Source: Nocardioides sp. (GTDB lineage: Bacteria > Actinomycetota > Actinomycetes > Propionibacteriales > Nocardioidaceae). From it: a DNA stretch of 11,451 nt. The stretch lies in NCBI GenBank assembly GCA_021731205.1, contig JAKFXV010000108.1, forward strand, positions 1 through 11,451, given 5' to 3'. Below the pieces are notes generated by a model, which was given only the letters and a program-made list of their open reading frames with translations, searched no databases and was not told the origin of the DNA. Numbering within the stretch: position 1 is the stretch's first letter; each line of letters starts with the position of its first letter. Below are positions 1-1,187 of this stretch, piece by piece. Both the position numbers and the translations under genes were made by a program.

Positions 1-9
1 GGAGCTCGC

Positions 10-456
10 GTGCTGCTGGTGGGTTCCAGCGGGGGGCATCTGACACAGCTGCACGCTCTCAAGTCCTGGTGGTCCGGCCACGAGCGAGCCTGGGTGTGCT
101 TCGACACCCCTGATGCCGTGCACACCCTGGAGGACGAGGCGACGGTGTGGTGGGCTCACCACCCGACCACTCGAAACATCAAGAACCTGGTCCGCAACAC
201 CTGGCTCGCCTGGCGGGTGTTGCGCGCCTATCAGCCGACCGTCGTGTTGACCACCGGTGCGGGAGTGGCTGTGCCGTTCTTCGTGCTCGGTCGACTGACA
301 GGGGTGCGCACGGTCTACATCGAGGTCTACGACCGGATCGAGACCCCCACGCTCACCGGCCGCCTCTGTCGCCCCTTCACCGATCTGATGCTCGTGCAAT
401 GGCCTGAACAGGCGACGTTGTACGACGAGGCGGTCGTCGTGGGGCCGCTGCTATGA
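10..456 (+). CDS. pssD: PssD/ALG14-like subunit of a split glycosyltransferase
   Basis: The 148-residue product begins with the ALG14/PssD signature GSSGGHLTQL (residues 5-14) and ends with the family-typical QWPEQ and a final VVVGPLL, so it looks full length. In this family PssD is the membrane-associated half that anchors and partners PssE; the pair adds a sugar from a nucleotide-sugar donor to a lipid-linked saccharide at the inner face of the membrane. A hydrophobic stretch near residues 76-98 could be the membrane-association segment. GTG at 10 is taken as start because a GGAG lies at 1-4, five bases upstream, but the reading frame is open to the window edge, so a slightly earlier start cannot be excluded. 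The stop TGA (454-456) overlaps the ATG at 453 of the first 59-bp repeat unit. Sugar specificity cannot be read from the sequence. Confidence 0.85.
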   Translation: MLLVGSSGGHLTQLHALKSWWSGHERAWVCFDTPDAVHTLEDEATVWWAHHPTTRNIKNLVRNTWLAWRVLRAYQPTVVLTTGAGVAVPFFVLGRLTGVRTVYIEVYDRIETPTLTGRLCRPFTDLMLVQWPEQATLYDEAVVVGPLL

Positions 457-515
457 GCGAAGCGAGAGAGCGCGACGTTGCGCTCGAACTGCGAGCTCAT
501 CTGGAGGAGTCATGA
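453..515 (+). CDS. Micro-ORF 1 in repeat unit 1 (20 codons)
   Basis: The frame opens with ATG at 453, which overlaps the pssD stop as ATGA, and closes with TGA at 513-515, which overlaps the ATG of the next unit. The product starts MSEARERDVALEL and continues RAHLEES: a charged peptide of helical character with no recognised family. A GTGGGG at 439-444, eight bases upstream, is a weak ribosome site. Whether the peptide matters, or only the act of translating it, cannot be decided here. It may equally be a by-product of a repeat that happens to be open. Confidence 0.35.
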   Translation: MSEARERDVALELRAHLEES

Positions 516-574
516 GCGAAGCGAGAGAGCGCGACGTTGCGCTCGAACTGCGAGCTCATCAGGAAGAGTCATGA
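512..574 (+). CDS. Micro-ORF 2 in repeat unit 2 (20 codons)
   Basis: It has the same layout as micro-ORF 1, in another reading frame because 59 is not a multiple of three. GGAGGAG at 503-509 precedes the ATG. The peptide differs from micro-ORF 1 by Leu to Gln at residue 17; the only other base change is silent (GAG to GAA). The TGA at 572-574 overlaps the next ATG at 571. Function is unknown. Confidence 0.35.
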   Translation: MSEARERDVALELRAHQEES

Positions 575-633
575 GCGAAGCGAGAGAGCGCGACGTTGCG
601 ATCGAACTGCGAGCTCATCAGGAGGAGACATGA
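571..633 (+). CDS. Micro-ORF 3 in repeat unit 3 (20 codons)
   Basis: This is the third copy of the micro-ORF, with GGAAGAG just upstream (562-568). Relative to copy 2 it carries Leu to Ile at residue 11 and Ser to Thr at residue 20, both conservative, plus one silent change. Its TGA at 631-633 overlaps the ATG at 630 that starts pssE, so ribosomes ending here could reinitiate directly on pssE. Function is unknown. Confidence 0.35.
   Translation: MSEARERDVAIELRAHQEET
620..627 (+). promoter_or_regulatory. Ribosome binding site that fixes the pssE start
   Basis: AGGAGGAG sits two bases before the ATG at 630; the best AGGAGG match (620-625) is four bases from it. This strong site, plus the family N-terminus that begins directly at 630, argues for ATG 630 over the upstream in-frame ATG at 537, which would only translate repeat DNA in an unrelated frame. 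Confidence 0.75.
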
Positions 634-1187
634 GGGTGATCGTGGTGCTGGTGGGCACCGACCATCACCCCTTCGAGCGGGCGGTGCGCTGGGCCGACGA
701 CCGGCAGCGGAGCCATCCGCAGGACCGGGTCTTCATCCAGTACGGCAAGTCGCGAGAGCCACGACTGGCGACCGGTGAGGCGTTCGTGAGTCCGCAGCGG
801 TTGCGACAGCTCGTCGCCGAAGCCGACATCGTGATCACCCACGGCGGGCCGGGCACGATCAGTGACGCTCGCCAGGCAGGACACCGACCGATCGTCTTCC
901 CCCGAGATCCGCAACACGGCGAGCACGTCGACGATCACCAACAGCGCTTCGCGGCCTGGTGTGCTCGCCGTGGCCTGGTGGGGTTCGCGGCCACGAGCAG
1001 CGACGTCGATGAGGCGATCGCCCGGCTGGGCGAATCCGGCACCCGTGGCCTCGCTCTGGCGGATCCTGCTGCTCAGGCTGCGGTCGCTCGCGTCGGCGAA
1101 CTCATCGATGGACTGATCCAGCGCCCCGAGTCTGGCCGTCGCACGATCCGACGCCTGCTCCGGATCGGGCAGCGCGCGGGTCGCTAG
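630..1187 (+). CDS. pssE: PssE/ALG13-like catalytic subunit of a split glycosyltransferase
   Basis: The 185-residue product starts MRVIVVLVGTDHHPFERAV, matching the VTVGTxxHPF opening of the ALG13/PssE family. It carries the nucleotide-sugar binding region HGGPGTISDARQAGHRPIVF (71-90), followed by PRDPQHGEHVDDHQ (91-104), the GT28-type donor site. It is expected to act with PssD at the cytoplasmic membrane, extending a lipid-linked oligosaccharide for an exopolysaccharide or capsule. The family opening often has His after the GT; here it is Asp11. The tail beyond about residue 165 is Arg-rich and a little longer than usual. Its ATG overlaps the stop of micro-ORF 3, so its translation is probably coupled. 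Its TAG at 1185-1187 abuts the stop of the convergent flippase gene. Confidence 0.85.
   Translation: MRVIVVLVGTDHHPFERAVRWADDRQRSHPQDRVFIQYGKSREPRLATGEAFVSPQRLRQLVAEADIVITHGGPGTISDARQAGHRPIVFPRDPQHGEHVDDHQQRFAAWCARRGLVGFAATSSDVDEAIARLGESGTRGLALADPAAQAAVARVGELIDGLIQRPESGRRTIRRLLRIGQRAGR

Follow-up and report, generated by a model that had tools for sequence, protein, structure and literature searches.

A repeat array between pssD and pssE in Nocardioides as probable tandem copies of a dispersed hairpin element at stop/start overlaps

In the genome of a Nocardioides species (GenBank assembly GCA_021731205.1) three nearly identical short repeats, each with an open frame of its own, lie between the genes pssD and pssE. 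This raises the question of what such repeats do between two genes and how they came to be there. The window, by which we mean the whole stretch of DNA analysed, comprises positions 1 to 11,451 of contig JAKFXV010000108.1. A preliminary description had proposed a relay of three 59-bp units and four ATGA stop/start overlaps leading from pssD to pssE, and both Tandem Repeats Finder (453-634, period 59, 3.1 copies, 95% matches) and a check of the frames agree with it. The chain of start codons 453, 512, 571 and 630 with its 20-codon frames is exact, each unit works in a different frame (the four ATGs lie in frames 0, 2, 1 and 0), and pairwise the units differ at 2, 3 and 3 positions. The gene names given are fair, Pfam placing an Alg14-like domain upstream and Glyco_tran_28_C downstream, and the arrangement for coupling, as read from the sequence, is present and recurs in the repeat family described below. 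The strong ribosome site claimed for every unit stood in part: taking site strength as the hybridisation energy to the anti-SD, it holds before 512 (-9.3) and 630 (-10.3) and fails before 571 (-4.3 kcal/mol). The features of the locus are as follows.

1..456, forward strand: pssD, Alg14-like (PF08660, E 1.1e-12), truncated at its 5' end by the start of the contig
454-456, forward strand: TGA stop of pssD, inside the first ATGA
453..500, forward strand: hairpin of unit 1, ATGAGC paired with GCTCAT, three helices with internal loops, predicted fold -22.6 kcal/mol, with covariation
453..515, forward strand: micro-ORF of unit 1, 20 codons, its stop (513-515) overlapping the ATG at 512
501..511, forward strand: 11-nt tail of unit 1, ribosome-binding sequence, -9.3 kcal/mol
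512..559, forward strand: hairpin of unit 2
512..574, forward strand: micro-ORF of unit 2, 20 codons, its stop (572-574) overlapping the ATG at 571
560..570, forward strand: 11-nt tail of unit 2, weaker ribosome-binding sequence, -4.3 kcal/mol
571..618, forward strand: hairpin of unit 3, predicted fold -15.9 kcal/mol, one stem pair lost by a C to A change at unit position 31
571..633, forward strand: micro-ORF of unit 3, 20 codons, its stop (631-633) overlapping the pssE ATG at 630
619..629, forward strand: 11-nt tail of unit 3, ribosome-binding sequence for pssE, -10.3 kcal/mol
630..1187, forward strand: pssE, Alg13-like, 185 codons, Glyco_tran_28_C (PF04101, E 1e-12)

The length of the chain alone was rejected as evidence, because dinucleotide shuffling of the window produced a chain of at least three NTGA-linked micro-ORFs in 237 of 300 cases. 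Chance would not account for the repeat itself, for its placement from gene to gene or for its recurrence at other junctions. We consider it highly probable that the three units are tandem copies of one small hairpin element, dispersed in the genome, whose place is the 4-nt NTGA stop/start overlap and which most likely gets there by insertion.

The element is dispersed through its own genome. A 21-base pattern, allowing at most 3 mismatches, gave 19 matches on 13 contigs, where the reversed control pattern gave none, and a covariance model added one copy on contig C3; the assembly is fragmented (2.09 Mb, 350 contigs, 84% complete), and repeats in it may be collapsed. Copies stand singly, in twos and, within the window, in three. 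Most are of a short form, a 48-nt hairpin followed mostly by an 11-nt tail, while two long copies (75 nt; L010, L013) carry 27 extra loop bases and keep the frame. The unit measures 59 bp in this genome, and 86 bp is common across the genus. By Pfam, one copy lies between a HisC-like aminotransferase and a HisB-like gene, others precede genes for an AIR-synthase-like protein, an ABC transporter and a YbaB protein, and one follows an ECF sigma factor.

To follow the element further we used two models, R1, built from 16 elements and containing the RTGA, and R2, built from 21 long forms without the RTGA ends and the tail. R1 matched 18 of 118 Nocardioides genomes at E<=0.01. R2 matched 37 of 209 at E<=0.001, the own genome included, and left 172 of the 209 without a match; one genome (G158) had 11 R2 hits. 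Within the order there are matches in 6 of 147 genomes, five of them in the genus and one (G305) outside it. Across the class R2 matches 10 of 394, three in the genus and seven elsewhere with one marginal hit each (E 1.8e-4 to 5.1e-4); seven in 394 exceeds what the E-values alone predict, their calibration being rough. A pattern scan of named genomes found 12 stretches in 11 records, all from Nocardioides or Nocardioidaceae. Cultured species with copies include N. szechwanensis and N. psychrotolerans. Sampling was one genome per species. Phage and plasmid records gave no match. In IMG/VR ten stretches carried the pattern of the 5' arm and none of these the 3' arm within the next 110 bases, and we took them as chance. 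At one of these ten loci, on a viral contig, R2 gives a weak hit (L225:4545-4610, E 1.1e-4).

Single short units are predicted to fold with -15.9 to -24.7 kcal/mol, locus L007 favouring another fold. The hairpin covaries. In an alignment of 16 elements 97.9% of the cells pair, compared with 93.3% in shuffles, and 13 cells are double-changed compared with 4.2; the first base of the start codon belongs to the closing RTG/CAY pair, and this pair is divided evenly between A-U (8 of the 16 rows) and G-C (the other 8). For 21 long forms the corresponding values are 97.0% against 85.5% and 26 cells against 7.6, in an alignment drawn largely from hits of R1, which rewards pairing and contains the RTGA, and therefore selected for pairing; tandem and orthologous copies in both alignments are not independent. 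Two of five covariation measures show no clear excess over shuffles, these being pairs changed on both sides (reached by 44 of 500 shuffles for the 16 elements and 55 of 500 for the long forms) and further pair types (83 of 500 and 213 of 500). The array as a whole has a predicted fold of -77.5 compared with -66.6 for shuffles (z -2.9), in which arms of different units pair with one another. One copy in the collection, on the minus strand of L009 (G000 C100, 1499-1546), lies outside any NTGA overlap; it has CCGAGC...GCTCGG ends, and its base is fully paired.

Covariation and placement in operons, together with one junction that is occupied in four species despite their divergence, would also be expected of a functional RNA, a site for a protein, an RNase or a ribosomal protein that controls the downstream gene and has spread through that function. 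We think this rather unlikely. The downstream genes are unrelated to each other (SdhB-, HisB-, YbaB-, AIR-synthase- and ABC-transporter-like), only the 37 of 209 genomes of the genus carry the element, and it stands at neither of the two junctions tested in relatives. Nor does Rfam hold a family for it: over positions 300-800 of the window there was a single match (E 0.32), outside the array, and no curated family fell on the element, while over 10 related loci the single match (E 0.21) lay away from the element. The match in the window is to the NiCo riboswitch at 639-729, inside pssE; at 17.6 bits it is below the cut-off of 37, and we took it as chance.

The dispersed element tends to sit on stop/start overlaps. 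R2 gave 89 hits in 73 arrays, and NTGA precedes 65 of the 89, leaving 24 without a 5' NTGA; the NTGA-bearing copies lie in the gene sense, mostly with open frames. The upstream frame that ends at the TGA of the NTGA has the highest GC3 of the three frames in 47 of 54 testable arrays, compared with 95 of 759 background NTGA sites in the studied loci. Of 46 testable arrays, 44 show the highest GC3 in the downstream frame that starts from the overlap; this test was limited to arrays whose micro-ORF is shorter than 40 codons and ends in NTGA (a looser criterion gives 55 of 60). Thirty-five arrays lie at loci that neither belonged to the R1 hits nor served to train R2; the NTGA is present in 21 of them, and here the upstream frame is right in 18 of 21 and the downstream frame in 17 of 18. 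Many loci are related, among them four sdhA-sdhB sites, so all of these counts overstate the number of independent events. Micro-ORFs shorter than 40 codons were found in 48 arrays, with a length of 29 codons in 28 of them, 28 codons in seven and 20 codons in five, the other eight spanning 4-26. Frames are broken in some copies (L060, L015, L160). At the junction occupied in four species, where the flanks are SdhA- and SdhB-like by domain in L064, three of the species in the alignment lack 1 base at one place and 2 at another, 3 in total.

These placement and frame data point to selection on coupling rather than on the peptide. Were the peptides of 20-29 residues themselves functional and selected, one would expect recurring residues, and ELRAH/ELRAN-type ends do recur. 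However, it is the conserved arms that encode these residues, and in L061 and L065 the peptide shifts frame midway yet ends at the NTGA overlap. Functional peptides are therefore the explanation to which we give the least credence.

A mobile hairpin with its own micro-ORF would account for the placement as follows. A typical copy has RTGA at both ends and its own start codon in the closing pairs of the hairpin; a frame stays open across the hairpin, and an SD-like tail often follows. When it enters an NTGA overlap the upstream gene would still end in NTGA, the micro-ORF would take over the ribosome finishing that gene and hand it on at its own NTGA, and because the stop of the micro-ORF again overlaps the downstream start, termination-reinitiation could go on. 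Lengths of 3n+2 per restarting unit, or 3n per unit that is read through, would preserve this arrangement, so that insertion and duplication could occur with little harm and copies may be nearly neutral. The keeping of placement and frame at unrelated junctions suits an element that must not harm the operon of its host. In the pssD-pssE junction one copy would have entered and then been duplicated twice; duplication is the simplest explanation of the tandem state.

The spacings between tandem copies bear on this. All 16 are 2 mod 3 (11) or 0 mod 3 (5) and none is 1 mod 3, some of them coming from arrays without NTGA (L151, L153, L155, L165), which suggests that a copy either restarts or reads through. 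Copies follow each other by read-through, with no restart, in L004 and L005, spaced by 57 bp, and in L152, which is the same as L077, spaced by 84 bp. Two or three copies are present in 13 of the 73 arrays and a single copy in 60.

The preliminary description had suggested that the number of units acts as a rheostat, setting the number of termination/reinitiation steps before pssE and hence the PssD:PssE ratio, with slippage altering the number. Three nearly identical units and the 13 arrays with two or three copies are in keeping with this. Alg14/Alg13-type partners are expected to act as a pair, which makes a variable PssD:PssE ratio less obvious as a purpose. Most arrays (60 of 73) hold one copy only, and in L004, L005 and L152 (L077) the read-through means that unit number does not set reinitiation steps there. 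Two of the three starts supplied by the array also have strong SD-like sites, so fresh initiation could bypass the counting. The idea itself is not new, similar regulatory roles having been proposed for repeats of mycobacteria, the MIRUs discussed below, in the part of PMC2734929 used here; the same part reports that in M. tuberculosis the transcript level of fpg1 dropped with shorter upstream repeats, the changes being modest and at the level of the transcript. On balance we regard a rheostat as unlikely.

What the array may do for initiation at pssE can be considered separately from unit number. ATG 453, which is preceded by pssD sequence, has an anti-SD hybridisation energy of -4.8 kcal/mol, and since this site at the end of pssD is weaker than the one in front of pssE (-10.3), the array may raise initiation of pssE here. 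As a general property of the element the supply of a better ribosome site was rejected, the means being -7.16 compared with -7.12 kcal/mol before the element (n=50, p=0.83). Within the folded array the start codons are mostly paired, with predicted unpaired probabilities of 0.05-0.06, and the SD stretches have predicted values of 0.68, 0.71 and 0.35. Start codons paired in this way would favour ribosomes arriving by translation over fresh ones, and the SD-like tails may either assist the relay or permit fresh initiation.

Insertion into an existing overlap is consistent with the state of the same junctions in relatives. At the hisC-hisB junction, where the own genome carries a copy, the HisC-like frame directly overlaps hisB by NTGA in 22 of 24 relatives, the overlap being unconfirmed in two (L180, L182). 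At the pssD-pssE junction a PssD-like frame directly overlaps pssE in 10 of the 16 relatives with a pssE match, nine times by GTGA and once by TTGA; among the other six, where the overlap is unconfirmed, four have a gap (L085, L087, L089, L097) and two appear unlike such pairs (L098, L099). R1 and R2 together found no copy at either junction in the 40 loci of relatives, and they recovered the own copies. Weak hits away from the junctions occur in some of these loci (L176:776-843, E 0.004; L095, 0.03; L189, 0.06; L086, 0.08). In L182 (G041, another family) 12 bases that match the 5' arm, GAGCGAAGCGAG, occur a short distance ahead of the ATGA before a HisB-like gene and may be a remnant or chance.

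The two ends of the element also resemble each other slightly beyond the NTGA. In 26 of 43 arrays, where 11.7 are expected, the same base precedes the NTGA at the two ends, and the similarity of the two ends over 14 nt is 6.26 compared with 5.01, a value reached by none of 2000 shuffles. This may reflect a short target duplication. In L072 and L141 the bases before the upstream GTGA (CAGGGGGAGAT and CAGGGGGAAGC) are repeated before the downstream GTGA, with 11 of 14 bases in common, which resembles a longer target duplication; the upstream frames of these two loci end alike, and the sites may be orthologous. The ends of L138 share 13 of 14 bases, and this copy seems to follow the remnant of another.

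Mobile elements of other kinds have some of these properties. MITEs are short, lack a transposase of their own, and have inverted arms and a short target duplication. The Nocardioides element is likewise short and without its own transposase, with inverted arms and possibly a short target duplication, but its arms cover nearly all of it, no related transposase is known, and its site is a codon overlap. REP elements and REPINs, moved by RAYTs (Y1 tyrosine transposases), are short imperfect palindromes in several copies, and the present element, a short imperfect palindrome that is dispersed and in some cases tandem, could be taken for one. In the part of PMC3733652 used here REPs are given as 20-40 bp long and as mostly bearing GTAG or CGTC at one of their ends. 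The Nocardioides element is larger, no such tag was noticed by eye at the ends of the listed copies, and the NTGA-bearing copies lie at NTGA junctions in the gene sense, mostly with open frames. The domain of the mobilising enzyme, PF01797, matched in none of the 12 genomes that hold copies, of which the own genome is 84% complete, while the E. coli control was positive. A REP moved by a RAYT is thus very improbable here.

The closest known system is that of the mycobacterial interspersed repetitive units (MIRUs), a name that reportedly goes back to Supply et al. in 1997. To our knowledge, MIRUs lack obvious palindromes. The part of a 2025 review used here (PMC12548453) describes them as apparently mobile repeats whose insertion at start codons leaves their ORF coupled at -4 nt and probably affects the genes very little, and the part of PMC3914561 used gives 46-101 bp and 41 loci. 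As far as these parts of the sources go, the two have in common a length of tens of bp, occurrence at many loci and at times in tandem, presumed mobility and an internal ORF at -4 nt. The Nocardioides repeat falls within the range of about 40-100 bp, is dispersed (13 contigs of its own genome by pattern and one by the model) and is tandem at some loci; in architecture its internal ORF lies at -4 nt to the gene (47 of 54 upstream, 44 of 46 downstream). It differs in its hosts, which are Nocardioides and Nocardioidaceae rather than mycobacteria, and in having a hairpin that covaries and whose closing pairs take in the start codon, the likening to MIRUs being by description. According to the same part of the 2025 review, no other spacing motif among closely spaced ORFs is nearly as common as the -4 nt overlap (PMC12548453); the overlap here is that of an ordinary NTGA junction, which a repeat carrying an ORF, probably by insertion, has multiplied. 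The element is MIRU-like in the way it probably works, and we do not file it as a MIRU. Its kind is already known, whereas a hairpin-built repeat of this kind from Nocardioides or other actinobacteria was not found described in the literature searched, which mostly excluded subscription journals.

Whether it is a class of mobile hairpin that is Nocardioides' own, targeting and duplicating the NTGA overlap, holding a start codon in the hairpin base and stackable in tandem as a portable translational coupler, and so an independent solution to the strategy of MIRUs, seems to us evenly balanced. The findings suggest that this strategy, of entering operons at stop/start overlaps while leaving translation unbroken, extends beyond mycobacteria and may have evolved on more than one occasion. 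Orthologous junctions that are empty or filled, arrays of one to three units, and arrays that restart or read through are natural material for measuring the relay of ribosomes through successive -4 overlaps.

In two loci a truncated half of the element apparently forms the N-terminus of the downstream gene. One is L003:1560-2309, whose protein has no Pfam match, and the other is L014 from position 18 onward; in both, the start codon and the arm (MSEARER...) now appear to be coding.
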